From positions 1 through 64,000 of the IMG/VR virus record IMGVR_UViG_3300046092_000036: 64,000 bases of DNA; one strand, written 5' to 3'. Below, piece by piece: positions 16,878-63,361 of this stretch. Below the pieces are notes generated by a model. The model worked only from the letters and a program-made list of their open reading frames with translations. It was not told where the DNA came from and did no database searches. This DNA comes from a virus. The position numbers were made by a program, and so were the translations under genes. Position 1 is the first letter of the stretch. Every line of letters begins with the position of its first letter.

Positions 16878-16903
16878 ACCCCGCCTAGTGCGGGGTCTTT
16901 TTT
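16878..16903. terminator. Convergent intrinsic terminator
   Basis: ACCCCGC, a 5-base loop and GCGGGGT followed by CTTTTTT on the plus strand; the reverse complement gives the same hairpin with a shorter T-run. It sits between the two convergent transcription blocks, so it probably stops the replication operon and may also stop the late minus-strand operon. Confidence 0.8.
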
Positions 16904-28007: not shown

Positions 28008-30424
28008 TATCTGCGTCCGTCTGGTCTTATATCAATACGTGGATAACCCATCTGCCAAGCAACACCTAGTCCAGTAGACTCAATTCTATACGCCATTTGC
28101 CTACCTCTAATGCGAGTGTAAACTTGTCCAGTAAATTGTTGCACTGCATAAGTTTTTTGAGTTGTATAGTTTTGTGTACTTGCCACTCTAGGGGCATTAG
28201 GCGCCCCATAAGCTGTTCCTGCGTTAACACGAGGCAATACCACCATAGTTACTTCTGGTAAATTTGCATTAGAACCGTTAAAAGTTAAGTCAGGTAGTAT
28301 GCGCCAGACAAACCCAAAGTTATACCCGTCACCGATATCAAAATCAGATGATTGAATATAAGACACAATAGGCACTGGGGTTAACCCTGATACATCATCA
28401 TTACCATTTTCGTGATAAAGGATTCGGTAGTTAGCAGCGTCAGCGCCCATTGGGAATGTACGTAAACCTGAATCTAACCAAGCAGTGCGGCTCATAGTTC
28501 CGTAAGACCATACATCATCTAAATAATCGTAGATAACATAGCGGTCAACAATAGTGCTATTAGCTGAGCAGTAGAACCACCAAATTTCGTTGTAGCCTTC
28601 TATAGACCCAGCAAACACTTGAAAGTTTTGATTTTGATTAATGTCTTGATAAACGTATTGACGCAGAGTAGAGGGCAAAGTTTCCACACGACCAGTGTAT
28701 TTATAGAACTTATCAGTACCCATCCAGTAAGTTACGTTATTAACCGTAATAGACGCATTAGGTCCCATGATAGAAATATTGTCTTGTAGTAGTTGGAAAC
28801 CCCAAACATAAGGAGGTCCAAGGTACTGCATAGAGTATATAGCTGCGTCAGTCCAAATTAATATCTCTTGGCGGGTTGATTTAGCACAGACAATGTAAGA
28901 ACCAATATTAAGACGGAATTCGCCAGCCTGGTTTGTTACTGCGGGTACCCACTCATAAGGGTTTTCTTGGTCAGCCCAGCGGACTAACAATGGATCAAAT
29001 GTAGTATTAGCATTTGCGGGGTCGTACGGGTTAGCACCAAAAGCAATTACAAAACGTTGAATTGCTGAACCAATAATTTGATTAGTTGTATTTGGTACAA
29101 ACTGCCCTGAAAAACCTTGTGTCGTAGATAGGGTATTTAAAAGAAGTGCTCTAGCGCTAACGCCAGAGGTAGCTGACCAATAGTAAATACCACCGCCACG
29201 AGGGGCAATAATTAAATCTTGACCAAAGTTATCGTTACTCCATATACGAAGCTGTTGTGCAATACCAACATCTGCCGCAGAACCCCAAGGGCGTGAACCA
29301 TACTGTGGATAAGCTATAACGGCAGAACCACCACCAACTGCTCCGTATGCTGCAGGGGCTACCAAAGTTATAGTGTATGTATTAGCATCTACATAAGTAA
29401 GTTCAAACGTGCTATTTAGCCAAGCTGCTGGAACAGCAACGTTAGTAGCAGTTACTCCATACATGCCATAAGTGCCTGTAGCAAAACCGCTAGTGCCAGA
29501 AATACTAAATGTAGTCGGTGTTGCTGTTAAATTAGTTACACCTAAAAAAGCTACCCAAACAATAGAAGCTGTGCCTGAGCCAGTACCCACACCAGTAGCA
29601 GTAAAAACTGTGCCAACCGTATTGGCTGAAGCGCCAATTAAAGTAAAGTTTGTAGATCCTACAGCAACAATTTTGTATTGTTGTCCAACAATAAAGGAAC
29701 CTGCGGAAGTTAAATAACCGTGAGCATTTTGTGTAACTGTAACAACAGCGCTACCAGCAATTGCGGTAAATGGGTTAGCACTTAAAGCAACGGTATCTGT
29801 TGGAGACCAACTACCTGCGCCCCAGCCTGTACTTGTAGTATAAGTATCATTACCTACAGGGTATAAATATTGGACGGTTACTGTACCGCCACCCGTTGTT
29901 GTAGATGTTGCCGCTGCGCTAGCTGTTATTTCGTATTGAAGACTGCTATTAAGTTTTGTTACTACGTATTGACCAGAAATAGTTAAGCCACCAACAGTAG
30001 CAGTGCTAGTTAAGTTTACATAATCACCAACACTAGGAGATATTCCACTAATTGCATCGTTTACCGTTACGACGGCAGAACCGTTTGTTGTACCTAAAGC
30101 ATTGGCGCCTAGGGTAGTTGTTGTATTGCCACTACCGTTTAACAACAAGGGGGTTATATCGTTATATTCGCCACCCTGTTCAATGTAGTATTTTTTACTT
30201 GTGCCAACACCTAATAAGTTAGAACCAGCTAAAGTACCCCAATTCCAAAGCGCTCGGCAAATACCAAGAAAAGTGTTATTAGAAAGACGTGTCCACCCAC
30301 CAATTTTTTCAGCATTACCAGAACGAAAACGAACTTTGTCGCAGTCAAACCAACCACCTTCATTGGTGTAGTTTGTACCCTCTTTGTTTATACCAGGTTT
30401 AAAGACTAGTTTTTGTAATGGCAT
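28007..30424 (-). CDS. Tail nozzle / stabilisation protein
   Basis: An 805-residue protein starting MPLQKLVFKPGINKEGTNY. FKPGINKEGTNYTNEGGWFDCDKVRFR and GGWTRL are typical openings of the large podovirus tail proteins (T7 gp12 or P22 gp10-like position). An inserted Ser/Thr/Gly-rich beta region spans about residues 90-370, after which the conserved propeller-like part resumes (QLRIWSNDNFGQDLIIAPRGG). It should form the distal tail tube. Confidence 0.75.
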   Translation of the reverse strand: MPLQKLVFKPGINKEGTNYTNEGGWFDCDKVRFRSGNAEKIGGWTRLSNNTFLGICRALWNWGTLAGSNLLGVGTSKKYYIEQGGEYNDITPLLLNGSGNTTTTLGANALGTTNGSAVVTVNDAISGISPSVGDYVNLTSTATVGGLTISGQYVVTKLNSSLQYEITASAAATSTTTGGGTVTVQYLYPVGNDTYTTSTGWGAGSWSPTDTVALSANPFTAIAGSAVVTVTQNAHGYLTSAGSFIVGQQYKIVAVGSTNFTLIGASANTVGTVFTATGVGTGSGTASIVWVAFLGVTNLTATPTTFSISGTSGFATGTYGMYGVTATNVAVPAAWLNSTFELTYVDANTYTITLVAPAAYGAVGGGSAVIAYPQYGSRPWGSAADVGIAQQLRIWSNDNFGQDLIIAPRGGGIYYWSATSGVSARALLLNTLSTTQGFSGQFVPNTTNQIIGSAIQRFVIAFGANPYDPANANTTFDPLLVRWADQENPYEWVPAVTNQAGEFRLNIGSYIVCAKSTRQEILIWTDAAIYSMQYLGPPYVWGFQLLQDNISIMGPNASITVNNVTYWMGTDKFYKYTGRVETLPSTLRQYVYQDINQNQNFQVFAGSIEGYNEIWWFYCSANSTIVDRYVIYDYLDDVWSYGTMSRTAWLDSGLRTFPMGADAANYRILYHENGNDDVSGLTPVPIVSYIQSSDFDIGDGYNFGFVWRILPDLTFNGSNANLPEVTMVVLPRVNAGTAYGAPNAPRVASTQNYTTQKTYAVQQFTGQVYTRIRGRQMAYRIESTGLGVAWQMGYPRIDIRPDGRR

Positions 30425-30435
30425 ACGGATTTACC

Positions 30436-30864
30436 CTAGGAATACGTTCTTGTTCCAGCTCTATCAATGATAAGGGCTTGTCTGCGTGGTGTCATGTCTT
30501 TTGTGTTAGGTACGCTGATATGCGTCCACCTGTCAAACTCACGAATTATTTGGTCATACCCAATACCCGAAGTAATTACAGCCTTAACAACTTCGTCTGG
30601 CGTCATACCTGGAACTCTAATATCAGCAGCGCAACCAATACGGTGTTGGCTAGTATCTTTAGAACCTACTGCATCATTTACCTTTTTAGACCTAAACGCA
30701 CTATTTACCATAATCGGCTTACCACCTAATACAGTTTTAACTTCTTCTAAGAAAGCGGCTAAACGGGTTAGGTTAGTCATTTCAGCTTCGTTAGGCGTAT
30801 TGTCAAACTCCCGATGATCCGTATGGGTTAGCTCGTCAAGGGTAAAGTGTTCACTTAGATTCAT
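30436..30864 (-). CDS. M15 peptidase endolysin
   Basis: A 142-residue peptidoglycan peptidase of the M15 (D-Ala-D-Ala carboxypeptidase/endopeptidase) family, with SAFRS at about 55-59, zinc motif SQHRIGCAAD (His74, Asp81) and WTHIS (His115). It lacks a signal peptide, so it needs the holin encoded just upstream. It should cleave the stem peptide at host lysis. It overlaps the holin gene by 14 bases. Confidence 0.88.
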   Translation of the reverse strand: MNLSEHFTLDELTHTDHREFDNTPNEAEMTNLTRLAAFLEEVKTVLGGKPIMVNSAFRSKKVNDAVGSKDTSQHRIGCAADIRVPGMTPDEVVKAVITSGIGYDQIIREFDRWTHISVPNTKDMTPRRQALIIDRAGTRTYS

Positions 30865-31264
30865 CTTTTGACCTCTTCATATCCATAATCTTCTCCAGAG
30901 TACGACCCCCGAAATAGAAAGACATAATGAGCATGCCCCATTGCCCGAGTAGTTCTACATAGTTGTTGTTTACCTCAATATCCCAAGCGGACATCATGGC
31001 AAAAGCAGAGTACACAAACAGAATAAATACAAGGGTGGCTGGTCTAATGTTCTTGGATAACGTAGAGTCAGAAGCCATGTCAGCTTGCTGTCTTTTAGTA
31101 AGTTCCTGCTGCTCTGCAGTATCTGCTGCAATTTGAGCTAACTCGCCAGTCTGTTGCATCTCCAACAACTTGAGCTTTGCTTGCTCTGCTTGTGCTGGGT
31201 CAGGAAAGACCTTATCAAGTATCTTGCCGCCAATATTTAGTAGTGCATCTAATGGAAACATCAA
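30851..31264 (-). CDS. Holin, 3TM-type family
   Basis: A 137-residue protein. A charged helical N-terminus (DPAQAEQAKLKLLEMQQTG) is followed by hydrophobic segments (ATLVFILFVYSAFAMMSAW and LLGQWGMLIMSFYFGGRTL) and a Lys-rich tail. This layout is that of 3TM holins found next to M15 endolysins. It should open the inner membrane to release the endolysin. Confidence 0.8.
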   Translation of the reverse strand: MMFPLDALLNIGGKILDKVFPDPAQAEQAKLKLLEMQQTGELAQIAADTAEQQELTKRQQADMASDSTLSKNIRPATLVFILFVYSAFAMMSAWDIEVNNNYVELLGQWGMLIMSFYFGGRTLEKIMDMKRSKDESK

Positions 31265-31716
31265 ATAACTCCTAAAACAAATTTAAGCCATAGCGTCACA
31301 ATTAACGCCGCCAAAAAACAATAAAACTGCACTCGCCTAACCGCTTTTAAATCGTGTTGGAAATCTTCGTTATTTTTGCGTTCCATATTTTCTATATCTA
31401 ACTTAATCCTAAGCAACGCTTCCCATTCTTTAGCGCCATACTTCTTAACAAAATCTATCTTTAGTTTTGCTTCTTGGTCGCTAATTTGTTTCTTGTGGTT
31501 CCAATCTTTTAATGCTCTAATTAATGCCGTTTCTTTTTTAAACTCTGCTTCTCTAGCCGCTCGGCGTCTTTCTGTTGCTTTCTTTTGCGCTACATCTACT
31601 GCATCTTGTTGAACCCCTTCAATGCTTTTAGACAGCCCTTTAGCCGCCTCTCGACTTGCATCAAGGCTACCACTAAGAGTCTTTACTCCTTCGGTTATTC
31701 CAAATGGATCGGGCAT
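31261..31716 (-). CDS. Tail-anchored coiled-coil protein of the lysis cassette
   Basis: A 151-residue protein with a long charged coiled coil (AQKKATERRRAAREAEFKKE and following) and a single C-terminal membrane helix (VQFYCFLAALIVTLWLKFVLGVI). It overlaps the holin start by 4 bases. The C-tail-anchored layout and place suggest a lysis regulator or spanin-like partner, but no lipobox or second spanin frame is seen. Confidence 0.65.
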   Translation of the reverse strand: MPDPFGITEGVKTLSGSLDASREAAKGLSKSIEGVQQDAVDVAQKKATERRRAAREAEFKKETALIRALKDWNHKKQISDQEAKLKIDFVKKYGAKEWEALLRIKLDIENMERKNNEDFQHDLKAVRRVQFYCFLAALIVTLWLKFVLGVI

Positions 31717-31738
31717 ACTTCAATTTTTGCACCTATTT

Positions 31739-32755
31739 TTACTCGTAAAGAATGTTAACTGAACCAGCATCAAAAGTATCTGTGCCATTTACTGTAGTAA
31801 GACGAATTCGATCAAGGGTTGCAGAAAGAGTTTTAGAGCCGCAAACAGGCTGAACTGCAATTCCAGTAGCTAAAGAATTACCATTTTGGACCCAAGTATT
31901 TCCACTTAAATTTGTAAAAACCATTGTTCCGTATTGTAAATAAGCAGCGCCAGGATTTAAAGCCAATACAAAACCTGTAGTTAAACTTCCATACGCGTTT
32001 CCCGAAATATATCCTGTAGTTTCAATACCGCCAGAATTTCCAATTTGAATTTGTATAGAAGAACCACCATTGCTAGAAAGTCCATCAAACATAAAGGTAA
32101 TTCGCTTTACCCAGCTAGGTATGCTAGTAAAGTCAATGTTTGTTCCACTTGTAGAGGCTACCGCAGTTCCTGAAGTTAAAATACCTACCCCAGATGGAGT
32201 TCCAGAAAATACTGGGCTTGAAATTGTAGGCCCCGTCCCTAAAACAACAGCCCCTGTACCAGTAGACGTAGTAACCCCTGTACCGCCATTAGCTACAGGT
32301 AAAGTACCTGTTACATTAGTTGTTAGGTTTGCAAAAGTAGTTGAAGTTGTTCCAGTACCGCCATTTGCAATTGGAAGTGTTCCAGTAACGCCTGTTGTTA
32401 AAGGCAACCCAGTACATGAAGTTAGCGTACCTGATGTTGGTGTGCCTAATATTGGTGTAACTAAGGTTGGGGAAGTAGCAAATACGTTTGCCCCTGTACC
32501 CGTTTCGTCTGTTAAAGCTGCGGCTAAGTTAGCTGAAGAGGGTGTGCCTAAAAATGTAGCAACACCAGTTCCTAAAGAAGTTATACCTGTACCACCAGAA
32601 GCGGGTAACAGAGCGTTAGTTAAAGAAACTACTTGAGCGGTACTAATAGCAATAGCGGTTGTGCCACTAGTCTGGATAGCCATTGCCCCAGTAGTATCTG
32701 TAATAACGTTTAGTGCCGTTGCTGCTGTGGTTCCAGCATTAAGTGTAGTTGCCAT
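31739..32755 (-). CDS. Tail fibre protein with GGTG repeats
   Basis: A 338-residue beta-rich fibre protein. Repeated units LPxxxGVTGTLPIANGGTGTT, separated by about 20-30 residues, build the shaft; the C-terminal domain (SIPSWVKRITFMFDGLSSNGG and DRIRLTTVNGTDTFDAGSVNI) is the probable receptor-facing tip. It is one of several related fibres in this array. Confidence 0.75.
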   Translation of the reverse strand: MATTLNAGTTAATALNVITDTTGAMAIQTSGTTAIAISTAQVVSLTNALLPASGGTGITSLGTGVATFLGTPSSANLAAALTDETGTGANVFATSPTLVTPILGTPTSGTLTSCTGLPLTTGVTGTLPIANGGTGTTSTTFANLTTNVTGTLPVANGGTGVTTSTGTGAVVLGTGPTISSPVFSGTPSGVGILTSGTAVASTSGTNIDFTSIPSWVKRITFMFDGLSSNGGSSIQIQIGNSGGIETTGYISGNAYGSLTTGFVLALNPGAAYLQYGTMVFTNLSGNTWVQNGNSLATGIAVQPVCGSKTLSATLDRIRLTTVNGTDTFDAGSVNILYE

Positions 32756-32756
32756 A

Positions 32757-32975
32757 TTAGGTTCCCGATGTAGAAGCTAAAAGATAATAAACAGTGCCGC
32801 CAATATTAATAGCGACTTTGTTAGTTACCGTGTTTGTAGTAGATGCCGACACCGCTGTAGAAGCCAAAACAGTTCCAGAAACAGTTGGAAAAGTAATGGT
32901 CGGCGTACCCGCAATAGCTGGAGCAGCTAAGGTTAACGTACCGCTTGTATCACCAGAAATTGTAAATTGACCCAT
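32757..32975 (-). CDS. Short fibre-associated protein
   Basis: A 72-residue Thr/Ser-rich protein starting MGQFTISGDTSGTLTLAAP and ending AINIGGTVYYLLASTSGT, a common small phage structural motif. It lies between two fibre genes and ends 2 bases before the next. It may cap or start a fibre. Confidence 0.65.
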   Translation of the reverse strand: MGQFTISGDTSGTLTLAAPAIAGTPTITFPTVSGTVLASTAVSASTTNTVTNKVAINIGGTVYYLLASTSGT

Positions 32976-32984
32976 GATTTATCC

Positions 32985-34064
32985 TTAAGTCTTAATAATA
33001 AAGTTGATACCGAGGTAAGGCGGCAGATTAGCGTTTGTACCAGAAACACCCGCAGTAGCTACTGTAGTTGTAATGTTAGCGAAGCTAACGCCTGTTTGTT
33101 GAACTGCTTGATAGTTATTTGTACCAGATTGCAATCCAAAACCACCGCCAGATGCATCATAATATACTTCAGTATGGCTATGTCCTGAATCGGTTGATGT
33201 TGCTGTATGGGTGTGGCTTACTACTACCGCATCTGCGCTACCGCCTGTAGCCGCTAAAGTTGTGCCGTATGGCATACGGTTTGTATAGTTAGGCAGGTTA
33301 AATGTAGTAGAGCCATCACCAACACCAAAGGTCGTGCCAATCACCGCAAAAAGTGCGGAGTATGTAGTTCTACTCACCGCAGTACCAGTACACAACAAAT
33401 AACCAGTCGGAGCAGTTGCAGTGCCCCACATATTAATAACACCAGTAGGCACACTATTAGCTAATGCAAAAGCCGTAGTTGCTATCTGGGTTGTATTAGT
33501 TCCTTGTGCTGCTGTCGGCGCCGTGGGGGTTCCAGTAAACGTAGGAGACACTGAAGAGATTGCACCAGAAAAAACCCCCGTTGTACCAGTTAAAGCGCCA
33601 GATAAAGCAGTTGTGCCAGCTACGACTAAGTTACCGTTAATGTTAAAGTTGCCAGCCGACCCAGTTTGGGAAGAGAAGAAGCTAGTGCCGTCACAATATG
33701 CTTGAGCAGTAGTACCGCTAGGGATAGTTACAGTAGAGCCTGTAGCCCCACCAATAGTAATAGCAAATCCGCCAGTAGTGTTGTTATATATGACATAAAG
33801 CTTTTCTACCAGTGGGCAGATAATTTGGCGAATAGCTGAATTAGTCCCAGTAACTACCAAAACTGCATTGCGAGCTTCATCTGATACGCCGTTAAAACTT
33901 GTTAGTGTGTAGTCGGCATTGCTCATTACAATGCTTTGAACGCCTGTAATAGCTTGTTCTAGAATTGTGCCGAGGTTATTATTGGTCGTAGTACCCCACG
34001 TACCAGATTGATCTCCGTTACCAATAAGTTCTATTTTTAAGGATGGTGAGTAGCTAGATGCCAT
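32985..34064 (-). CDS. Tail fibre with phage tail-collar domain
   Basis: A 359-residue protein. The N-terminus (SLKIELIGNGDQSGTWGTTTN) is typical of fibre attachment ends; the centre is Thr/Gly-rich beta. The C-terminal third is a tail-collar domain: GVINMWGTATAPTGYLLCTG, TFNLPNYTNRMPYG, the His-rich HTHTATSTDSGHSH metal site and LPPYLGINFIIKT. It is a likely host-recognition protein. Confidence 0.82.
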   Translation of the reverse strand: MASSYSPSLKIELIGNGDQSGTWGTTTNNNLGTILEQAITGVQSIVMSNADYTLTSFNGVSDEARNAVLVVTGTNSAIRQIICPLVEKLYVIYNNTTGGFAITIGGATGSTVTIPSGTTAQAYCDGTSFFSSQTGSAGNFNINGNLVVAGTTALSGALTGTTGVFSGAISSVSPTFTGTPTAPTAAQGTNTTQIATTAFALANSVPTGVINMWGTATAPTGYLLCTGTAVSRTTYSALFAVIGTTFGVGDGSTTFNLPNYTNRMPYGTTLAATGGSADAVVVSHTHTATSTDSGHSHTEVYYDASGGGFGLQSGTNNYQAVQQTGVSFANITTTVATAGVSGTNANLPPYLGINFIIKT

Positions 34065-34076
34065 ATTATTCTTTCA

Positions 34077-34982
34077 TTAACATTGCTTAGTATCAATCGG
34101 TGCCCAATTTGGGGTTTGGTCGTTTCCAATATTTGCCCAAGTTACGGTGTTGCTATTGTTTACTGCGTTCCAAGTAATGGACTGATCGTCATTAATTTTA
34201 ATCCATCCAAGCACACAAGCCAAGTCCTGTAGTGTAAAGGTTTCAACGATGGATTGTAGGAAGTTGGACTGCTGGGTGCTAGAATCGGCAGAATTAAGGT
34301 TTTCTGTAATAGACTGTAGTAAGTTGGCAGTAACGGCAGCGGAGTCAGCAGATCCAAGGTTTTCTACAATAGATAAGAAAAATACCAAAATAATTGTAAC
34401 TGCGTCCGCCATTGTTTGGGCTTCAGTCACGCTTGATACAAACTGAGCAGTTATAGCGTCAAACTCCAAAGACTCTATAGCCTCGGTAATGCTAACCGCA
34501 AACTGGGCTGTAATAACTCGTACATCATCTAAATTGCTGTTTTCCGTGATGTTTTGGATAAGCGCTGCTGTTACTGCATTAATGTCTAAAACGCTATCTA
34601 TTGGCTCGGTGCGGGCTTGTAAAGCAGCAAAATACTGAACGCTAGAATCATCCATTACTACGTTTTCTGTTTGCACTGCAGCAAATTGAGCAGTTATAGA
34701 CTGGGTATTATCTGAGGTTAACGGTTCTGTAATAGATTGTAGATAAGCGGCAGTTACTGCTGGGGTGTCTGCCATAGTAACAAATTCATTTATTAACCCG
34801 TAAAACTCGCCAGTAGTAACGTCAAACTCAAACATATTAACGTTTTCATTCAGGCTTGCTACAAAGGCTGCAGTTACTGCATTGGCATCAGCCATATTGA
34901 TGTTTTCAGTAATGTCTACGACAAACGCATTCGTGCCTAATCCAGCAAAAGTACTTTGAGCGAATGAGCTTATTCCAAACAT
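34077..34982 (-). CDS. Tail protein with about twelve 20-residue repeats
   Basis: A 301-residue protein built of about 12 tandem units of about 20 residues with consensus FxxSITENxxxADxxAVTA, e.g. LLQSITENLNSADSSTQQSN and FVASLNENVNMFEFDVTTGE. The repeats suggest a regular beta or beta-helical rod. The C-terminus (WIKINDDQSITWNAV... NWAPIDT) has Trp-rich strands common in fibre tips. No enzymatic motif. Confidence 0.72.
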   Translation of the reverse strand: MFGISSFAQSTFAGLGTNAFVVDITENINMADANAVTAAFVASLNENVNMFEFDVTTGEFYGLINEFVTMADTPAVTAAYLQSITEPLTSDNTQSITAQFAAVQTENVVMDDSSVQYFAALQARTEPIDSVLDINAVTAALIQNITENSNLDDVRVITAQFAVSITEAIESLEFDAITAQFVSSVTEAQTMADAVTIILVFFLSIVENLGSADSAAVTANLLQSITENLNSADSSTQQSNFLQSIVETFTLQDLACVLGWIKINDDQSITWNAVNNSNTVTWANIGNDQTPNWAPIDTKQC

Positions 34983-35239
34983 TATCCGACCAAAGCCTTT
35001 AATTCAGCTTGGGTTAAGCCCAATGCAGTTAGTTTAGCTAGTGCAGAAGCCTTTACATCTTTAGCGGCTTGTTCTTTTGCGGCTATAGTAGCTTGTGTTG
35101 ATTCCCACAAAGCGTCTAATTCAGCTTGAGTAGGCTTTGGTGAAGAATCTAACCAAGTTAAACCTTCATAATCATCACCATTTAATGCCCATGATTTGCC
35201 AACATAATTTAAAGTAAGAATTAAAGTGTAACCAATCAT
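34982..35239 (-). CDS. Tail fibre assembly chaperone-like protein
   Basis: An 85-residue protein with WLDSSPKPTQAELDALWES followed by a Lys/Ala-rich helix, a pattern of short XkdW/fibre-assembly proteins encoded beside fibre genes. It overlaps the preceding fibre gene by 4 bases. It probably assists trimerisation of a neighbouring fibre. Confidence 0.6.
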   Translation of the reverse strand: MIGYTLILTLNYVGKSWALNGDDYEGLTWLDSSPKPTQAELDALWESTQATIAAKEQAAKDVKASALAKLTALGLTQAELKALVG

Positions 35240-35970
35240 CCTACTATCTCCATTAAAATTATTGATGATGCAGTTCTTGCAGAATATTCTTGTGTGTTGT
35301 CGGCATCATTAATACTTCTATTAAATGCAGTAGTTCCTGAACCTTCTGAATAAGAATCAAAAGAATATGTAGTAGACGAAGTAGAAGATGGCGAATCTAC
35401 ATAAGTAATGTTTACACCATCTGAATGGTTGCCATCTCCATTAAATCCAGAAACGTTTGATATAGTTCCTATTGGTCTTGACCCCGCTGAATCACCAATA
35501 AATATAGGGCTTCCACCTCTTGTTAGACGAATAGCTACACCGTTAATGTTGTGTACTTTACCAATTTGTATAATGACTAAAATTCTACTGCTAGTTGCTG
35601 ACGGTGTAATGCTTGCAGAAAGGAATGAACTTGCACTTGTCCATGTTTGTGCTGAAGAATAAGTATAAGTAGTAGTGCTAACCGCTTGAACTACTTGTTT
35701 AACTGTTCCTGCTGGTAAAGTTGTAGTAGGAGTAGCCCATGATGGAATACCACCAGCTATAGTTAAAACTTGACCTGTAGAACCAATGCCCAATCTTGCC
35801 GCAGTTGTTGGAGATGATTCATAAATAATGTCCCCTGTTGTAGTCATGGGGTTTAAAGCATTAAATGCCGCCGCTGCTGTAGTTTGTCCTGTACCACCAC
35901 CAGCAGGTTGCAATACCCCCGAAGAGTTAACGTCCGAGCTTAGTTCTGCTACGTTTTGTGCTTGTGTCAT
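35236..35970 (-). CDS. Tail fibre with GGTGQTT module
   Basis: The ATG at 35970 (MTQAQNVAELSSDVNSSG) overlaps the upstream stop by 4 bases and is preferred to the longer frame. The N-terminal module (GGTGQTTAAAAFNAL, then TTGDIIYESSPTTAARLGIG) is nearly identical to one inside the 660-residue fibre at 38731-40713. The C-terminal domain, beta-rich with SSILMEIVG-like end strands, differs. The shared module suggests recombination between fibre genes. Confidence 0.75.
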   Translation of the reverse strand: MTQAQNVAELSSDVNSSGVLQPAGGGTGQTTAAAAFNALNPMTTTGDIIYESSPTTAARLGIGSTGQVLTIAGGIPSWATPTTTLPAGTVKQVVQAVSTTTYTYSSAQTWTSASSFLSASITPSATSSRILVIIQIGKVHNINGVAIRLTRGGSPIFIGDSAGSRPIGTISNVSGFNGDGNHSDGVNITYVDSPSSTSSTTYSFDSYSEGSGTTAFNRSINDADNTQEYSARTASSIILMEIVG

Positions 35971-36311
35971 GTTACTTCTACCCAAGAGGTTGTTGGCTCA
36001 TCCCATTTATAGGGGCCGCCTGTTGTTGGCATAGGTGTTGGTGCTTCCCATAACCAAGTAGATTGATTTAGTGTCCAGCTAGAATAAGGTTTTGGCGCAT
36101 AAAACACATCGTTTGTTCTGTCATAAGTAAACCCAATGCCAGCATAGTTACCACGTAATGGTCTGTTTTCTGGGTGTTGATTTCCACGGGTATTGTAAGA
36201 AGTTTGAATCCAAGTACCAGGACTTGAATCTACGAATGTGTTAAAAAATTCAGGCTCAGCCACAATAACTTGTGTAACTTTCCCATCTACTACTTTTGCA
36301 AAATGACTCAT
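35967..36311 (-). CDS. Small tail protein, MSHFAKVV family
   Basis: A 114-residue protein starting MSHFAKVVDGKVTQVIVAEP, with TWIQTSYNTRGNQH and a Trp-rich C-terminal half (WTLNQSTWLWEAPTP). Near-identical openings occur in many marine and freshwater phage tail-associated proteins. It may decorate or attach a fibre. No enzyme motif. Confidence 0.7.
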   Translation of the reverse strand: MSHFAKVVDGKVTQVIVAEPEFFNTFVDSSPGTWIQTSYNTRGNQHPENRPLRGNYAGIGFTYDRTNDVFYAPKPYSSWTLNQSTWLWEAPTPMPTTGGPYKWDEPTTSWVEVT

Positions 36312-36322
36312 GTTTTTCTCCG

Positions 36323-37426
36323 TTAAGCTGTATATGTACCACTAGATGTAAATGTATGATAAGTGTAGCCACCAGCAAAAGTAATAGTTCCGCCAGTGCC
36401 TTTTTGAGTGCCAGGATAGCGGACAATTACAACCCCTGAACCGCCGCTTCCACCAACGTTTGCTGAATTTTGGTATCCTATAAACCCACCACCGCCACCA
36501 CCTGTGTTTGCAGTTCCAGAAGTTCCGCTTCCACCACCACTAGCAGCACCTGCACCGCCACCACCATTACCACCCGTGCCTGGTGTACATGATGTAAAAG
36601 CGCCACCTGCTCCCCCGCCACCAGCGTAAAAAGTTCCTAATGATTGCCAATTTAAACCAACACCCCCATTACCACCAACACCTCCAGAGCCATACGTACC
36701 CACTGCACCAGCACCGCCGCCGCCGCCACCTGGGTATGGATTAGCACTATCGTTTCCAGCGCCAGCATTTCCTTGCCCAGCGGTTCCTGCGCCGCCAGTA
36801 GCTCCTCGCCCGTCCCCAGCGCCACCGCCACCAGAGCCACCATCTTTTCCGTTTTGTGAGTTGTCTGTGTACCCACTTTGTCCACCACCCACTGCGGTTG
36901 ATGACACGAACGAAGAATTACTACCATTAGTAAGGCCGCCAAGACCTTGACCAACACCAGAACCGCCACCGCCAACAACAACTGTGTAAGGCCCCCCTGA
37001 TGTAAACGATGTCGATCCAGTTACAAAACCTCCAGCACCGCCGCCGCCTGAATTTGAACCGCCACCACCAGCAACTACTAAATATTCAACAGAATAAGTA
37101 TAGGCATACTGCGTCCAAGCCCCGTTTTGATAGACCTCAAATTGATTAAGTGTTGTGTTGTATCTAATCATCCCATTTACGGGAGATCCAGGGCGTTCCG
37201 CAGTTGTTCCTGCTGGTAAATCAAAATAACCAGTAGAAGTATTGTTTTGATCTGAAACGGCTGCTGGAGTAACCGTAGGCACTGATGGGGTTTGATAGCT
37301 TAATGTAGTGCCGTTAGATGTAAGAACTTGTCCATTAGTACCTACTGTTGTTAAGCCTGTACCTCCGTTAGCGGTAGGCAGTGTACCTTCTACTATATTA
37401 GTTGCGTTTACTTTAGTTAGTGCCAT
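36323..37426 (-). CDS. Glycine-rich tail fibre/adhesin
   Basis: A 367-residue protein. The N-terminal attachment module (NGGTGLTTVGTNGQVLTSNG) is shared with the fibre at 38731. The C-terminal two-thirds is made of polyglycine stretches (GGGGAGG, GGSGGGG) separated by short loops, as in T4-type gp38 adhesins, where the loops contact the receptor. The final strands are GVVIVRYPG and TYHTFTSSGTYTA. It is a probable host-range determinant. Confidence 0.75.
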   Translation of the reverse strand: MALTKVNATNIVEGTLPTANGGTGLTTVGTNGQVLTSNGTTLSYQTPSVPTVTPAAVSDQNNTSTGYFDLPAGTTAERPGSPVNGMIRYNTTLNQFEVYQNGAWTQYAYTYSVEYLVVAGGGGSNSGGGGAGGFVTGSTSFTSGGPYTVVVGGGGSGVGQGLGGLTNGSNSSFVSSTAVGGGQSGYTDNSQNGKDGGSGGGGAGDGRGATGGAGTAGQGNAGAGNDSANPYPGGGGGGAGAVGTYGSGGVGGNGGVGLNWQSLGTFYAGGGGAGGAFTSCTPGTGGNGGGGAGAASGGGSGTSGTANTGGGGGGFIGYQNSANVGGSGGSGVVIVRYPGTQKGTGGTITFAGGYTYHTFTSSGTYTA

Positions 37427-37436
37427 GTTTTATCCA

Positions 37437-38354
37437 TTAAGCCGTATAACTTCCTGATGCGTTGTAAGTCAAAATAGTGTTTGCTCCTGATGTAGTTACT
37501 GATGGGCTTCCAGTAGTTGTTCCAGAATACTTAGCAGTTGGTACAGACAAAATTACTACGCCTGAACCGCCGTTTCCTGCTGTTCCTGTATTTGCAGCAG
37601 CGTCTGTTCCACTTCCACCACCACCACCACCTGTATTAGTGCTTCCTGGATATCCGTTTCCACCATTCCATTCACCAGCACCGCCACCACCTGAACCACC
37701 GCCTCCACCATAAGCATAAACATAAAATGAACCGCCACCGCCACCGCCACCGTAGGTTACAGATGACCCAGTAATAGATGATGCTAATCCTGCACCACCA
37801 CCACCACCATAACCGCCAACAACCCCTGCTCCGCCGCCGCCGCCGCCTATACGAACTGTTCCATCATCATAACCAGTAGCTCCAGCGTTTCCTTGTCCTG
37901 AGGTTCCAGCCCCTCCTGCTCCTGCTCCCCAACTAACACCTCCGCCACCAGATCCACCAGAAGTTGCTGCAGTAGTGCCACCGCCTCCGCCTCCTCCTAA
38001 AGAAGTAATTACTCCAAAAACAGAATCACTTCCGTTTGTGCCTCTAGGCCCTATTAAACCTCCAGTTGTACCAGCACCACCTGTACCGCCGCCACCAACT
38101 GTTACTGTGTAGACTGTACCTATATCTAATAGTGCAGTACTAGTTAAATAACCACCTGCACCGCCACCACCACCTGAACCGCCACCACCGCCACCACCGC
38201 CAGCTACAACTAGGTAAGTGGCTGAATATCCAGTTGTGGGCCATAACCCTAATTCGTTATATTTTGCTTGTTCATCAAGTCCCCACACCCCAGAAGCAAC
38301 ACTGCTTGTTGGGGTATTGTTAACTCCGATAACTCCGCCATTCCAACGTGGCAT
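37437..38354 (-). CDS. Second glycine-rich tail adhesin
   Basis: A 305-residue paralogue of the upstream-strand neighbour. After a short unique start (MPRWNGGVIGVNNTP) it has TYLVVAGGGGGGG and repeated Gly blocks, ending GSGVVILSVP and a TYNASGSYTA tail like the first adhesin. Two adjacent adhesins of this kind could widen or switch the receptor range. Confidence 0.73.
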   Translation of the reverse strand: MPRWNGGVIGVNNTPTSSVASGVWGLDEQAKYNELGLWPTTGYSATYLVVAGGGGGGGGSGGGGGAGGYLTSTALLDIGTVYTVTVGGGGTGGAGTTGGLIGPRGTNGSDSVFGVITSLGGGGGGGTTAATSGGSGGGGVSWGAGAGGAGTSGQGNAGATGYDDGTVRIGGGGGGAGVVGGYGGGGGAGLASSITGSSVTYGGGGGGGSFYVYAYGGGGGSGGGGAGEWNGGNGYPGSTNTGGGGGGSGTDAAANTGTAGNGGSGVVILSVPTAKYSGTTTGSPSVTTSGANTILTYNASGSYTA

Positions 38355-38728
38355 TAAGAAATTTCCTCATAAGAAGCGGTTATGGTTAAATCGTTTGCAA
38401 CGCCTGCTGTAGCGCCAATAGATGTATTTTCTTCTAGATAAATTTGAGTATCTTTACCAATTACAATTATTGTTGAGTCTGCTGGCACTGCTACTGTAAA
38501 TACAATTGGAAACGCTGTGCCACCTAGACTTGCAGCAGAATAGTATTGAACAGTTATATTTACCGCATTTGTACCGTCTACGTTTGCTACGTATAGCGAG
38601 TTAACTTTAAACACTTTTCCAGATGAGGCTGCGTTAGTAAGGATAGTTGTTGCACTTGTAGTGCTTAAAGCTACAGTAGTGGTTTTGCCAGTAATTGTAG
38701 TTGGATTTGCAAGGTTTGGTGCTGCCAT
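38354..38728 (-). CDS. Small beta-rich tail protein
   Basis: A 124-residue Thr/Ala/Val-rich protein (MAAPNLANPTTITGKTTTVAL) with alternating strands, overlapping the next gene start by one base. It resembles small trimeric fibre-linker or tail decoration proteins in phages. No further assignment is possible. Confidence 0.65.
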   Translation of the reverse strand: MAAPNLANPTTITGKTTTVALSTTSATTILTNAASSGKVFKVNSLYVANVDGTNAVNITVQYYSAASLGGTAFPIVFTVAVPADSTIIVIGKDTQIYLEENTSIGATAGVANDLTITASYEEIS

Positions 38729-38730
38729 AT

Positions 38731-40713
38731 TTATCTCCCGAATACCATATTAAGGCCGACTGCCTGTTGTTTTGTAAAGCTAACTGTTGGAGTTTGAAAA
38801 CTTAAAGTTGTTCCGTTGGAAGTAAGAACTTGTCCATTAGTGCCTACAGTAGTTAAACCTGTACCACCATTTGTAGTTGCCAAAGTACCTGCCAATACAA
38901 CCCCGCCAGTAGTAGCAGATGCTGGGGTAAAACCTGTTGTACCCGCACTAAACGAAGATACTGTACTAACAGACTGAACACCAAGATAACGAACCGCAAT
39001 ATTGCCAGAAGCAGAGGGTGGAGCAGTACTAAATGTAAGGGTATTGCTTGAAACTGTATAAGTAGTAGGGTCTTGAACTACACCAGAAATAGCTACTAAC
39101 AACGAAGCTGAGTTAGCTGGTACAGCGCTCATTGTAAATACGGTTTGTGACCCCGTACCGTTAAAAGTCTCAGCAGTAATAGTGCTATAGATGTTTAACG
39201 AACTAAATACTTCGGCTTGGATTAAATCGCCAGTAACAGCACCACTAGCTAAAGTAAATGATGTGCCATTAGTTGCAGTAAAGTCGGCTTGACCTAACTT
39301 AATACCATTGCGGTAAACATCAATTAAACCAACTGTATAGACAACGCTAAATACAGTTTGACCAGAAGTAGCTGTAAAGTCTGTTCTAGTAATCGTACCT
39401 GCGCCAGTAGAAGGAGTAGCCCATGAAGGAATACCACTAGCTACAGTTAAAACCTGTCCAGTAGAACCAATACCTAATCTTGCGGCAGTACTAGCAGAGG
39501 CTTCATAAATAATGTCCCCTGTAGTAGTCAATGGACTTAAAGCATTAAATGCCGCTGCTGCTGTAGTTTGTCCTGTACCGCCGTTAGCAATTGGAACAGT
39601 TCCAGAAATACCCGATGCAGGAACAGAACCCCATGAAGGGGCACCGCTAGTGGTAGCAACAAGAACTTGACCTGTAGTACCCGCAGTTGTAATACCTACC
39701 GCAGAAGTGCCACTACCGTACACAACTCCGTTTGAAGTTAAGGTTGTATTTCCAGTACCACCAGCAGCAACAGGCAAAGTACCTGCAGTTAAAGTAGATG
39801 CGCCAGTTGAGAAAAGAGCATTATTAGTTGCTGTAAATGTAGTTAACCCCGTACCGCCATAAAGGGGCTGGATTGTGCCACCATTCCAAGTTGCATTAGA
39901 AATTGTTGCAGTACCAAAGTCTGCGGAGCTTGTATTAAAGTTATATGAGCCAGGTAGGAAAGAATAAATACCCCAAGTACCCGCAACCGTTGCAATACTT
40001 GTAGCGCCTAGTTGAGAAGCACCGCCTGAAGGAATAACTTCAATAGTTGCAGATGTATAGTCTTTTACTGTTAAAGCGCCAGAAGAATTATTAACAAAAA
40101 CAAAACTTTGTCCAACTTGCAATGTTGTAGCGTCAGGAAGCTGAATGGTTTGGGTGGTAGAACCAATTAAGACCTGCGTTCTTGCAGAGGCTACTGTTAA
40201 AACTGTTGTACCCGCAGCGGCTGTTACCGCAGTAAAACCTGATGTAAAGTTGCTAAAGGTTACGTTTTGGTTAGCATCTCTTAATACTACAGAGTTAGCA
40301 CCACTAGAAGCGGTAACGCCCGTGCCACCATAAGCAACACCTATTGTAGTGCCTTGCCAAGTACCAGAAGTGATAGTTCCTAAAGGACTAACGTTTCCAG
40401 AAGCATTAAGATTGACAGATTGTTCAGACGGGTAAGTAACGAATACGGTAACCGTGCCACTAAATGTAACCGCAGAACCCAAATTGCTAGACGATAGGAT
40501 TGTTGTACGAACTAGAGTTGGTCCAGTTGTTGAGTACGTGCCAACACCCACTTCCCAGCTTCCAAATACGTCTGTAGCTGCATAGAAAGTAGTGTTACCG
40601 TTTCCGATAACAGCAAAGGACTGGAAACCTACAACAGTGCCAGTAAGCGTAAAACTTACAGTTGTGTTTGCAGTACCAGTCTGTTGGACACGGTCATTAA
40701 CTACGAGAGCCAT
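38731..40713 (-). CDS. Long modular tail fibre
   Basis: A 660-residue fibre. The N-terminus (MALVVNDRVQQTGTANTTVSFTL) is a common attachment domain. Several GGTG repeats (IANGGTGQTT, VAAGGTGNTT, LYGGTGLTT) form the shaft, with a DVYRNGIKLGQADFTATNG beta domain near residue 480. Modules duplicated in the genes at 35236 and 36323 lie in its C-terminal half. It is probably the main side fibre. Confidence 0.75.
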   Translation of the reverse strand: MALVVNDRVQQTGTANTTVSFTLTGTVVGFQSFAVIGNGNTTFYAATDVFGSWEVGVGTYSTTGPTLVRTTILSSSNLGSAVTFSGTVTVFVTYPSEQSVNLNASGNVSPLGTITSGTWQGTTIGVAYGGTGVTASSGANSVVLRDANQNVTFSNFTSGFTAVTAAAGTTVLTVASARTQVLIGSTTQTIQLPDATTLQVGQSFVFVNNSSGALTVKDYTSATIEVIPSGGASQLGATSIATVAGTWGIYSFLPGSYNFNTSSADFGTATISNATWNGGTIQPLYGGTGLTTFTATNNALFSTGASTLTAGTLPVAAGGTGNTTLTSNGVVYGSGTSAVGITTAGTTGQVLVATTSGAPSWGSVPASGISGTVPIANGGTGQTTAAAAFNALSPLTTTGDIIYEASASTAARLGIGSTGQVLTVASGIPSWATPSTGAGTITRTDFTATSGQTVFSVVYTVGLIDVYRNGIKLGQADFTATNGTSFTLASGAVTGDLIQAEVFSSLNIYSTITAETFNGTGSQTVFTMSAVPANSASLLVAISGVVQDPTTYTVSSNTLTFSTAPPSASGNIAVRYLGVQSVSTVSSFSAGTTGFTPASATTGGVVLAGTLATTNGGTGLTTVGTNGQVLTSNGTTLSFQTPTVSFTKQQAVGLNMVFGR

Positions 40714-40723
40714 CTAGGACTCC

Positions 40724-41329
40724 TTAGCTTGTAGCGGTTGTTGAGTATGTAACGCTTACTGTATCGCCAGCTGTCGTAGTCTTAGCCGTTGCAAATGCTC
40801 CAGCGCTATATAAAGTTCCGCCTGTGTTGCTTATGGTTGAACTTGCACCAGACCCTGTAACTAAGAAACAACCTGTCACGTTACCACCAGCACCAGTAAT
40901 AGTATAGGTAATAGCTGTAGCAGCAGAAGTTGTTACGTTAGATGGTGTAGTACCACTTGAAGTAGCAGAAGCAAACACAGCAGTGCCACGAACAGCGGAA
41001 CCACCAACTGTGTAGTTAGCAAACTCAGTCCAACCAGCGTGTGAAGTCATAGTATCGGATGCTACAAATACTGGACTAGTAGTACCAATCAAACCTAAGA
41101 ACGGACCAACAACAGTATAAGCAGAGCCTTTTAACAGGGTATCTAGCATCAACTGTTTACCAACCGCATTAACTAGGTTAGGGAACTCTTCATTCCACTT
41201 TAAATTGCCAGCAGCATCACGGCACTCTACATGGTAGTAGCCTTCAATACCAACAGTTTCTGTACCTGCTACGTTAGCTTGTAAGCTAATTTCTGCTTTA
41301 TCGCCGCAGCTCGCTAATTCTTTTTGCAT
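40724..41329 (-). CDS. Tail/head-associated beta protein
   Basis: A 201-residue protein starting MQKELASCGDKAEISL. GYYHVECRDAAGNLKWNEEFPNLV then VGKQLMLDTLL is a recurrent opening among phage structural proteins found next to fibres. The C-terminal half is Thr/Ser/Gly-rich. It is probably a minor virion component. Confidence 0.65.
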   Translation of the reverse strand: MQKELASCGDKAEISLQANVAGTETVGIEGYYHVECRDAAGNLKWNEEFPNLVNAVGKQLMLDTLLKGSAYTVVGPFLGLIGTTSPVFVASDTMTSHAGWTEFANYTVGGSAVRGTAVFASATSSGTTPSNVTTSAATAITYTITGAGGNVTGCFLVTGSGASSTISNTGGTLYSAGAFATAKTTTAGDTVSVTYSTTATS

Positions 41330-41338
41330 AAAAACTCC

Positions 41339-41761
41339 TTAATTTGTAAATCGAATAATAGCGTCAGACGAATTATTCGCAGGGAAAGTTATAGTAAACG
41401 TATTTGAAGCCGTTTTATTCGACCCAAAATTTAATACCGCAACAGCTGCTCCAGTAGTGCTATTGTAAATTAAAGCCCCTGCTGTAGTAAAGGAAGCTGG
41501 ATCCCAAGTTACATTTGCAAAAGATACATAAGCTACATTATTGCTAGTAGTTGGGGGTATAACAGTTAAGACTTTGCCCGTGGCTGTATAGCCAGTACCT
41601 GTAATTTCGCCATCACTAGTGTATGCCAAAGTATCAGGACTTATATTGGCTGCAGCTGTATATAAAGCAATCTTATATGTGTAAGGGGTGCCAACAGCAA
41701 AGTTCTCTAAAGCACTTAAACAGTTCTTTTGAAAAATTGTGCATTGCCCTTGCGCAATCAT
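41339..41761 (-). CDS. Tail/head-associated beta protein
   Basis: A 140-residue protein (MIAQGQCTIFQKNCLSALEN) with TYKIALYTAAANISPDT and ALIYNSTTGAAVAVLNFG, typical of small phage structural proteins with an Ig-like or jelly-roll fold. It overlaps the adaptor gene stop by 4 bases. Its function is inferred from place and composition only. Confidence 0.65.
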   Translation of the reverse strand: MIAQGQCTIFQKNCLSALENFAVGTPYTYKIALYTAAANISPDTLAYTSDGEITGTGYTATGKVLTVIPPTTSNNVAYVSFANVTWDPASFTTAGALIYNSTTGAAVAVLNFGSNKTASNTFTITFPANNSSDAIIRFTN

Positions 41762-42687
41762 GGATTAACCTTAATTTTAGCCTGACCATCACGATAAGCG
41801 TCACCACGCTCAAGACCTGTTCCAAGACGGTTAAGCTGCATAAGAGCGTCGGTATACTTGTCTTCGTAGTATTTAATAAGGTCTTGCTCGCCCTTCATAA
41901 AGAGCATTGCTTCCCGCATTGCACCATAAAGTAAGACTGGGTCGTAGTTATCACCTAGCCAGCTTGTGCCTGCGGTGTTATTAACAGCGCTTACGGGTAT
42001 AGAAAAACTAGAACCAGAACCGCCAATGTAAGTGTTAGAACATGATAATACATCCCCAACAACGTAGAAATTACCGTTGTTTTTAATGGTTACGGAAGTT
42101 ACCGTTTGTCCAGAAACTGTTATGTTTGCAGTAGCTCCAGAACCAGAACCCCCTGTTAAAGGCACATTGCTGTAGTTTCCGTTGGTATACAAAGAACCAC
42201 CAGTAGGAACACCAACACCAGAAATAGCCCCTTGAACAATAGATACTGGGTAATAGAAATAATGTAACTCTACAGAATACCCAGTATTAGGGGTTGGTCC
42301 TACAATAAAAGACAACTCATTGGCGTTGGTATATTGTGAACCAAATAGTGCGTAATATTTAGGCAATCCAGTATCCGCTGGGGTTGGGTATGCCTCACGG
42401 ATATAGTTCACATCTTTATTAAGCAAATAAGTATAAGTCTCTGTTGCTGTGCCGTAATTCTCAATAACCGCCATAGAAAACGTAGATAAATAGTCGTCGG
42501 GGCACGACAAATACTTACTGCTAGCCGTAAGCGTACCCGTCACGTTTTTACGTAACGATGGAATCTGGACTGAGTTGTATATACGTTCTTCGGCTTCTTG
42601 AACAAAAGTCGGTATGTTAGATACAAACAACGACTCTGTATTTTCAGAGTAGTCCTGAATCGCTTGGTAGAGTTGAACGTAATTCAT
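41758..42687 (-). CDS. Head-tail adaptor (gp11-like) with inserted beta domain
   Basis: A 309-residue protein. The opening NYVQLYQAIQDYSENTE and IPTFVQEAEERIYNSVQIPSLRKN are typical of the podovirus adaptor/tail tube A family; the end LLYGAMREAMLFMKGEQDLIKYYEDKY is its helical C-terminus. Between them, at about 160-235, lies a Gly/Ser/Thr insert (LTGGSGSGATANITVSGQTV) that looks like a separate beta module. It should form the ring below the portal. Confidence 0.75.
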   Translation of the reverse strand: MNYVQLYQAIQDYSENTESLFVSNIPTFVQEAEERIYNSVQIPSLRKNVTGTLTASSKYLSCPDDYLSTFSMAVIENYGTATETYTYLLNKDVNYIREAYPTPADTGLPKYYALFGSQYTNANELSFIVGPTPNTGYSVELHYFYYPVSIVQGAISGVGVPTGGSLYTNGNYSNVPLTGGSGSGATANITVSGQTVTSVTIKNNGNFYVVGDVLSCSNTYIGGSGSSFSIPVSAVNNTAGTSWLGDNYDPVLLYGAMREAMLFMKGEQDLIKYYEDKYTDALMQLNRLGTGLERGDAYRDGQAKIKVNP

Positions 42688-42701
42688 TCGGGTTTACCCT
42701 A

Positions 42702-42965
42702 TTAGGCCATTGGCCCACGAGACGTATAGCCTTTAGTAGCAGCACCATGACCACGTTGTTTCATCTCACCGTTTTTATTAATTGGTGATTTGTTGTTCTT
42801 GGTATATCCACCTACAGACATATTTATTTGGTCTACACCATTGCCTGGCTTAACAACAGAGTCTTTAGCTGTAGTCATAGTCTTGCCGTCCATAGTGTGT
42901 GGCTTAGCATAGACGCTGGCTGGGCCAACTTCTTTACCGTTCTTTTTCATAGAAAATTTAGCCAT
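42702..42965 (-). CDS. Tiny Lys/Gly-rich virion-region protein
   Basis: An 87-residue very basic protein (MAKFSMKKNGKEVGP), low in hydrophobics, with KNNKSPINKNGEMKQRGHG near the end. It is one of a row of such proteins between capsid and adaptor genes. They may bind packaged DNA or act in head assembly; function is unknown. Confidence 0.65.
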   Translation of the reverse strand: MAKFSMKKNGKEVGPASVYAKPHTMDGKTMTTAKDSVVKPGNGVDQINMSVGGYTKNNKSPINKNGEMKQRGHGAATKGYTSRGPMA

Positions 42966-42967
42966 GA

Positions 42968-43150
42968 TTAACTACCTCTTTGGTTGTTTGCACGAGCCAT
43001 ATTGCGTCCAACTTTCTTCATTTCTAAAGAAGTTACGCCAGCAGACTTATTGCCGCCCTTTTGAGCAGCTACTTTTGGACCTGAATTACCAAGGTTTTTA
43101 CCCTCAGTTTTACCTTTTTTTGTAACTCCATCTGCGCCTGATTTGTACAT
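42968..43150 (-). CDS. Tiny Lys/Gly-rich virion-region protein
   Basis: A 60-residue basic, probably disordered protein (MYKSGADGVTKKGKTEG) ending MARANNQRGS, two bases from its neighbour. It belongs to the same row of small basic proteins. No family is recognised. Confidence 0.6.
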   Translation of the reverse strand: MYKSGADGVTKKGKTEGKNLGNSGPKVAAQKGGNKSAGVTSLEMKKVGRNMARANNQRGS

Positions 43151-58849: not shown

Positions 58850-58903
58850 TGCCCTAACAATGTTAGGCTCGTTCCGAAATATTTTTATTTCTTTCCAAAA
58901 AAC

Positions 58904-58932
58904 TTGATCTGTCTCTTATATTGTGTTATACT
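58904..58932 (+). promoter_or_regulatory. Promoter P1 (TTGATC family)
   Basis: TTGATC (58904-58909), a 17-base spacer starting TGTC and ending TGTGT, and TATACT (58927-58932). The upstream AT-rich stretch follows CTCGTTCCGAAAT. It is flanked by palindrome copies at 58853-58867 and 58984-58998, and drives early protein B. Confidence 0.8.
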
Positions 58933-59010
58933 TTAGGTATAGAATCAAAAAGCGTTAAAGAGTTAGTTGGGTTCTCTATTTAACCTAACATTGTTATGGA
59001 GTAGTCAAAA

Positions 59011-59718: not shown

Positions 59719-59803
59719 GAGGGAATCCCCCCAAAAAGGGGGGCAGAGCTTTGCTCTGGCACGAAAGCGCATCGGAATGAGGGTCGATTTCTCGCCAAAA
59801 AAC

Positions 59804-59832
59804 TTGATCTGTCCAATAAACTGTGTTATAAT
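59804..59832 (+). promoter_or_regulatory. Promoter P2 (TTGATC family)
   Basis: TTGATC (59804-59809), a 17-base spacer with TGTC at its start and TGTGT at its end, and TATAAT (59827-59832). A palindrome copy lies downstream at 59886-59900, in the leader of the small-gene operon from 59956. Confidence 0.85.
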
Positions 59833-63316: not shown

Positions 63317-63361
63317 CAATGTTAGCTCGTTCCGAATTATTTTATTTTCTAGGCAGAATCC

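Follow-up and report, generated by a model that had tools for sequence, protein, structure and literature searches.

The stretch analysed here (the window) covers positions 1–64000 of the virus record IMG/VR IMGVR_UViG_3300046092_000036, which is 65223 bases long, and carries on its minus strand an array of eleven genes, g08–g18 (gene names g01–g22 were assigned in this analysis), between the conserved gene g07 and the conserved genes g19–g21 (30436–31716). We consider it likely that this array is a phage host-recognition locus, in which several virion slots carry interchangeable ends. In comparisons with related contigs, the putative anchors (residues 1 to ~98 of g08, residues 1 to ~150 of g16, and g17 together with the start of g18) were kept and the stems and C-terminal heads were replaced; judged by sequence identity, residues ~141–274 of g08 arrived from another lineage, in an exchange between phages. 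Blocks of homology tend to begin or end near conserved joints, namely GTLPxAxGGTGxT and the collar motifs GGSAD...HTH and NLPPYLGI. A first-pass annotation made from the sequence had described a tail-fibre array with shuffled modules, and this agrees with what we found, a modular attachment-protein array whose modules and heads turn up, from phage to phage, in different genes.

Exchange between phages behind putative anchors

We compared g08 with its relatives in 30-residue blocks. The window's g08 was 72–91% identical to contig L084 at the nucleotide level over residues 1–150 and 271–630, compared to 42–61% over residues 151–270 and 50% over residues 631–660. Contig L086 matched it at 94–97% over residues 151–240 and at 82% over residues 241–270. 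Because L086 is also 81–83% identical over residues 91–150, the left edge of this cassette is not sharp; the dense part of the switch starts near residue 141. Across 330 informative sites, the maximum descent was 157 (residues 86–274), compared to a top value of 103 in 20000 permutations. The cassette is flanked by two copies of the conserved joint, SGTWQGTTIGVAYGGTG and NATWNGGTIQPLYGGTG. Each of the two cassette types is found repeatedly behind the g08 anchor, with 24 and 22 best matches (a count that takes in the query sequences and near-copies), and 3 further cassette matches were found in open reading frames (ORFs) that lack this anchor.

Relatives of g05 were found in at least 599 stretches of public viral contigs. 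Loci were collected via g05, g13 or g16 (for g05 and g13, from among the matches listed), and near-identical contigs that stem from different samples each have a row of their own. Loci L081–L083 are the window itself and were dropped from the block-end, cluster, anchor-distance, 4-mer, cassette-recurrence and array-coverage counts; the same counts leave out 13 loci that overlap another locus on the same contig, with which a few non-overlapping ends were also lost. The nearest named records by terminase were DSL-LC04 (56.6%), 023Pt_psg01 (54.5%), HTVC027P (54.0%) and HTVC023P (52.9%), and these named relatives, taken by themselves, suggest an aquatic origin of the contigs.

In the loci of at least 9 kb fetched with g05, the order g01–g07 was kept and was followed by a variable stretch, after which g15/g16, g17/g18 and g19–g21 appeared as far as the contig extends. 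Both the g08 and the g16 anchor were present in 59 contigs (the window and some near-copies included), with start-to-start distances of 1246–8922 bp (6640 bp in the window). Coverage of the g08–g16 interval was evaluated for pairs with at least 90% of g06–g07 aligned; blocks more than 99.5% identical were excluded, so that identical strains are uncounted, each pair was counted twice as an ordered pair, and several contigs are near-copies of one another. At a core identity of 93–100% (highest 95.9%; 6 ordered pairs from 5 contigs), interval coverage was 0.33–0.45. It had a median of 0.50 (range 0–0.65) at a core identity of 88–93% (24 ordered pairs from 8 contigs), and ran from 0 to 100% at 78–83%.

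Junctions were inspected in 8 of 99 contig pairs. The match between L071 and L159, and likewise that between L149 and L158, ends at g08 residue 97 (both pairs 88–90% identical), and the latter pair ends again at g16 residue 163. Block replacement was seen in L075/L077 and L164/L169, which are for the most part 94–97% identical, each pair having a single block of lower identity (87% and 76%). Together, these data show array proteins with a conserved N-terminus and an exchanged distal part, and host-recognition genes (a role assigned from domains and fold predictions) that vary from one backbone to another among close relatives. The first-pass annotation had named a lack of variation as the observation that would count against it; since related contigs do vary at the array, its proposal withstands that check.

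Heads also occur on more than one slot. When C-terminal segments of 150 residues were clustered, 5 of the 119 clusters occurred on two or more different anchors. The members of the collar cluster (58, the window's g16 among them) were borne by g16 anchors (37), g18 anchors (9) and other ORFs (12), and contigs L131, L080, L115 and L124 bear this cluster on both g16 and g18 anchors.

The short joint motif GGTGx[TS], which the first-pass annotation had missed, occurs 10 times in the array (g08, 5; g18, 3; g11, 1; g13, 1). Of 414 block ends, 97 lay no more than 36 nt from GGTG, compared to 46.5 expected under a uniform null and 52.6 under an offset null with positions borrowed from other ORFs (standard deviation 6.2, maximum 72 in 300 runs). 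When the motif was not chosen beforehand, GGTG ranked 8 of 256 frequent 4-mers (109 vs 54.7). This ranking is inflated for module A 4-mers (see below) by the g13-fetched loci and was repeated on the g05- and g16-fetched loci alone, where GGTG ranked 9 of 294 (68 vs 33.2); the other leading 4-mers there were GTLP, AAGG and AGGT, from the same joint, and the collar motifs HTHT (first of all), GGSA and PYLG. The enrichment, as a feature of aligned sequences, locates the borders of the putatively exchanged parts.

Gene layout and predicted folds

The features of the array are as follows, all on the minus strand; modules A and B are the repeats discussed in the next section, and lengths are in amino acids (aa).

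40724–41329 (−): g07, conserved border upstream of the array
38731–40713 (−): g08, 660 aa; anchor, joint, XD1-like cassette, joints and stem repeats
40420–40713 (−): putative N-terminal anchor of g08, residues 1–98, kept across relatives
39892–40293 (−): exchanged cassette of g08, residues ~141–274, with a predicted XD1-like beta sandwich at residues 157–254
39407–39589 (−): module A copy in g08
38783–38897 (−): module B copy in g08
38354–38728 (−): g09, 124 aa
37437–38354 (−): g10, glycine-rich domain protein (PF21722, E 1.7e-14)
36323–37426 (−): g11, module B and glycine-rich domain (PF21722, E 2.2e-14)
37281–37395 (−): module B copy in g11
35967–36311 (−): g12, 114 aa; contig L075 holds an 83% relative
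35236–35985 (−): g13, TTG start; short N-terminus, module A and head
35723–35905 (−): module A copy in g13
35239–35697 (−): g13 head, residues 97–249, predicted TNF/C1q-like jelly roll
34982–35239 (−): g14, 85 aa; weak match to XkdW (20.8 bits, with the cut-off at 24.6)
34077–34982 (−): g15, 301 aa; imperfect internal repeats (ITEN...D...VTA)
32985–34064 (−): g16, collar fibre; collar domain PF07484 at 33270–33443 (E 1.1e-22) and a variable tip
33615–34064 (−): putative anchor of g16, residues 1 to ~150
32757–32975 (−): g17, 72 aa; conserved piece ahead of g18 in several relatives
31739–32755 (−): g18, 338 aa; conserved N-terminus at 32576–32755 and three GGTG joints
31261–31716 (−): g19, conserved border downstream, followed by holin-like and peptidase genes

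These positions coincide with the genes of the first-pass annotation except at the start of g13, which we place at a TTG at 35985, the start given earlier being an in-frame ATG at 35970. Its two glycine-rich proteins (g10 and g11) and its collar-domain fibre (g16) were likewise confirmed by the Pfam matches listed. In many relatives g15 directly precedes the collar gene g16, and g19–g21 also recur in many relatives, g20 and g21 with holin and peptidase matches. Searches of PHROGs and Pfam with g09 (E up to 0.1) and of Pfam with g12 (E up to 0.01) returned no match, and among ten array proteins scanned with Pfam, none matched a depolymerase family or the N-terminal family of the T7 fibre. Relatives of the g08 anchor are short stand-alone genes, namely HTVC023P gp58 (151 aa, L266:2287-2742) and 023Pt_psg01 (127 aa, L267:3064-3447). 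Sequence comparison with solved structures matched g16 to the long tail fibre 8kec (E 1.8e-5), g13 to a single structure at chance level (E 0.39), and neither g08 (E up to 1) nor g11 (E up to 0.01) to any.

Structure prediction for g13 as a monomer (mean predicted local distance difference test score, pLDDT, 71.1) yielded a C-terminal all-beta domain. Over 123–131 residues, this fold matched Pgp3 (Z 13.6), the TNF-like lectin PLTL (Z 13.5) and the lectin BC2L-C (Z 13.1), followed by BclA, C1q and TNF proteins (Z 10.3–8.4); it also matched the unrelated jelly rolls of Kex2 and a birnavirus capsid (Z 8.4–8.6). The g13 head is thus predicted to be a TNF/C1q-like jelly roll. The g13 alignment comprised 43 relatives, of which 42 were chosen from the 80 g13-search loci; the remaining one, L097, belongs to the same 80. 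Because the search patterns used for g13 (which fetched loci L188–L265) include NPMTTTGD, the invariance of these letters in the alignment arises by selection. The g08 anchor alignment comprised 27 hand-chosen relatives.

Modelling of g08 residues 1–290 gave a mean pLDDT of 63.9, with block values of 60–83 over residues 161–250. Residues 157–254 matched an Acinetobacter phage tailspike (Z 9.0), StcE (Z 8.6), the CpaA complex 6O38 (Z 8.4), residues 79–180 of CBA120 TSP4 (Z 8.1) and a T4 baseplate chain, 5IV5 (Z 6.6); the anchor (residues 1–97) gave weak fold matches only, with Z up to 6.3. StcE, CpaA and T4 gp10 (5IV5) are named as relatives of XD1 in the work on TSP4, where a spacer role is suggested (PMC8825819). 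In light of this suggestion and the XD1-like fold match, the modest model of g08 predicts that its traded piece is probably a spacer behind the anchor.

A mechanism consistent with these observations would be as follows. The anchors may dock to the phage tail, and the heads (TNF/C1q-like in g13, collar in g16, glycine-rich in g10 and g11) may bind cell-surface receptors. During co-infection, homologous or homology-assisted recombination at the joints would exchange parts between phages, and such an exchange would shift which strains a phage binds. The repeats within this genome would be mostly shared stem elements that serve only now and then, if at all, as substrates for within-genome recombination. 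Host-range switching via the array, which the first-pass annotation had raised, is plausible. We put forward more tentatively, as something we think rather improbable, that GTLPxAxGGTGxT and the module A edges form a joint code that acts as a common landing pad. Stems and heads could then be fused to any of at least three virion slots in many phage lineages, the phages of a given habitat would share a single pool of heads, and in this group the XD1-like spacer behind the g08 anchor would itself be a traded cassette.

Repeats and alternative explanations

Modules A and B are repeats beyond chance and make up two of the three direct-repeat families of at least 60 nt in the whole window (exact 14-base seeds); 11-base seeds add low-complexity families from the glycine-rich genes, such as a 77-nt pair at 70%. 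Module A (GGTGQTTAAAAFNAL...SWATP) spans 183 nt and is 86% identical between g08 and g13, its core being 87% identical in nucleotides and 88% in amino acids. Over 63 codons including the divergent edges, these values were 81.5% and 81.0%, with 10 of 35 fourfold sites differing. Module B (GTNGQVLTSNG) spans 115 nt at 78% identity between g08 and g11, and over 38 codons is 76.3% identical in nucleotides and 84.2% in amino acids, with 14 of 23 fourfold sites differing. These fourfold differences suggest that the module A copies are fairly recently related and that module B has been kept mainly as protein. The first-pass annotation was right that similar segments recur in different genes, but in calling them near-identical it overstated their likeness, most of all for module B.

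The repeats could be conserved structural stem parts, alike by protein need and with no role in exchange, a reading to which we give some, though minor, weight. It is in keeping with a module B protein that is conserved while its fourfold sites have largely changed, and with the spread of module A over 118 contigs, where 99 of 136 copies belong to ORFs that have none of the three anchors. Yet the number of block ends close to the GGTG joint and motifs related to it is roughly double the expectation, and at fourfold sites the two module A copies of the window resemble each other more than most copies do.

Another alternative is a built-in host-range switch, with modules A and B recombining inside one genome and re-sorting the heads. 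A 183-nt repeat at 86% identity could support rare recombination. We evaluated the 136 module A copies (among the loci listed, with overlapping loci merged by contig position), which include two or more copies in 12 contigs; 3 copies were too short for the fourfold comparison, and 4 of the 12 multi-copy contigs yielded no pair passing the filters. The median fourfold difference was 0.63 for 35 within-contig pairs (8 contigs), compared to 0.59 for 7143 between-contig pairs; 28 of the 35 stem from one contig with 8 copies, and for the remaining 7 the median is 0.46. When every contig was given the same weight and L077, which nearly duplicates L075, was omitted, the mean quantile was 0.331 (n = 7; a fraction of 0.054 of 4000 null draws fell that low). 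Excluding the window, it was 0.384 (n = 6; 0.149 of null draws that low). These values show a weak lean of within-contig copies to closeness. Most of these within-contig pairs share an ORF, and there tandem duplication accounts for them.

Module A pairs in different ORFs number 9, and only the window's is close (0.26, in the lowest 1.3%, hence closer than ~98.7% of between-contig pairs); the other 8, from 2 contigs, have quantiles of at least 0.53. A copy in L097 (89% in nucleotides) is slightly nearer to the window's g08 copy than the g13 sibling is (87%). In a tree of the 32 nearest copies, the window's two copies were not joined with support, the module being too short for the tree to resolve them (6 of 28 inner branches were well supported). 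Module B, with its fourfold differences, is near saturation. Taken together, exchange within the genome is possible for the window's module A pair, homogenisation within one genome is not supported as a general mechanism, and a built-in switch appears unlikely. Of the earlier proposal that the repeats supply the homology that drives shuffling, the occurrence of modules and heads in different genes of different phages stands, but repeats inside one genome appear an unlikely driver. As a separate observation, L095 (contig IMGVR_UViG_3300021138_000207) holds 8 copies of module A, and 7 of these share one ORF, which makes it an extreme case of stem expansion.

That the g08 mosaic and the other junctions are chimeras of metagenome assembly is very improbable. 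The related contigs are indeed metagenome assemblies, and g08 switches sharply between two relatives; however, the cassette is 94–97% rather than 100% identical to L086 over residues 151–240, other contigs carry each of the cassette types behind the g08 anchor, as counted above, and junctions at which a swap follows the anchor are seen repeatedly, in contigs from different samples. Many-gene fibre arrays resemble loci served by diversification systems, but the chance that a diversity-generating retroelement, an invertible fibre segment or a shufflon edits this array is close to negligible: the 65223-base record has no match to RVT_1, Resolvase or Phage_integrase (searches that matched 3, 10 and 14 of 14 control genomes), positions 30000–43000 contain no inverted repeats of at least 20 nt, and no repeat pair of at least 60 nt in the whole window joins the array to a site outside it. 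Retroelement, invertase and shufflon were rejected for want of an enzyme match, inverted repeats and a template/variable repeat pair.

Several points weigh against the view that we favour, a host-recognition locus with interchangeable ends traded between phages. Anchoring, receptor binding and host range are inferred from sequence and predicted folds only. The g08 model is weak, and the cassette's Z of 8–9 is little above what the tool calls common. Collar motifs, HTHT among them, score at least as high as GGTG in the g05- and g16-fetched loci, and the YGGT form of the joint showed no block-end enrichment (10 vs 15.6). Related contigs have junctions in common, which makes their block ends non-independent, and a conserved joint stretches alignments to its own edge, so that the enrichment is no proof of a crossover there. 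Among the part of the ORFs that was scanned, no single-strand annealing recombinase was named, only an exonuclease. Finally, the weak lean of within-contig module A copies to closeness leaves room for some exchange inside one genome.

Elsewhere in the window, a 164-aa ORF in the replication region (6401–6895, plus strand) carries a domain resembling the C-terminal one of the bacterial RNA polymerase alpha subunit (PF03118, E 9.3e-10) and is possibly a host transcription modifier. It is followed at 6892–7662 (plus strand) by a weak Anp1 match (28.6 bits, just under the 28.8 cut-off). A 2124-aa ORF (16902–23276, minus strand) with an LPD39 match (PF18858, E 9.3e-10) may encode a large virion protein, either internal or ejected. 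Near the right end, three 67-nt repeats (58888–58954, 59788–59854 and 63346–63412) are 67–78% alike, contain CTTGATCTGT ... TGTGTTATA, and look promoter-like by eye.

Comparison with known systems

The principle is already known, as anchored fibres with exchanged distal parts (PMC6872550), as variable islands (PMC3909814, PMC7468147) and as gp38 segments flanked by motifs (PMC12892980, PMC12529663). In marine-phage metaviromic islands, C1q-like, tail-fibre and XkdW genes are among the island genes in the work of Mizuno and colleagues (PMC3909814), and the C1q-type head predicted for g13 would fit this list. The array shares with these islands variable host-recognition genes in otherwise conserved phages, and a fibre whose N-terminus is kept and whose C-terminus varies; the islands, however, are defined by under-recruitment of reads, whereas the contigs studied here show several anchored slots, joints, and heads on more than one slot (PMC3909814). 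Cryoconite phage pan-genomes similarly include variants of host-recognition genes that shuffle independently between nearly identical backbones; that work drew on cross-site metagenomes, whereas joints and slots are analysed here (PMC7468147).

Modular receptor-binding proteins of T7/K1F and of Klebsiella phages also combine a fixed N-terminal anchor with horizontally exchanged distal domains (PMC6872550). The present array differs in consisting of many small genes, without a T7 N-terminal or depolymerase match in Pfam. The T-even gp38 adhesins place specificity segments between short conserved motifs, and the array too has glycine-rich proteins, but here the GGTG joint connects whole domains across several genes (PMC12892980, PMC12529663). 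In Pfam, by which alone this comparison was made, g10 and g11 match only PF21722 (E up to 0.1), and 'GGTG' was not found in the tail-fibre literature turned up by text search. In CBA120 TSP4 (AD-XD1), an N-terminal anchor is followed by XD1, which the domain predicted for g08 resembles (PMC8825819). A branched receptor complex of the gp10/TSP4 type would also include the docking domains XD2/XD3; our modelling of g08 covers residues 1–290.

To what is known of these systems, our analysis adds a map of the slots and joints, together with one exchange that has good support, in a group of contigs that is widespread. By separating fixed from traded parts, this map makes the matching of heads to hosts, and long-read studies of strain variation, directly testable.

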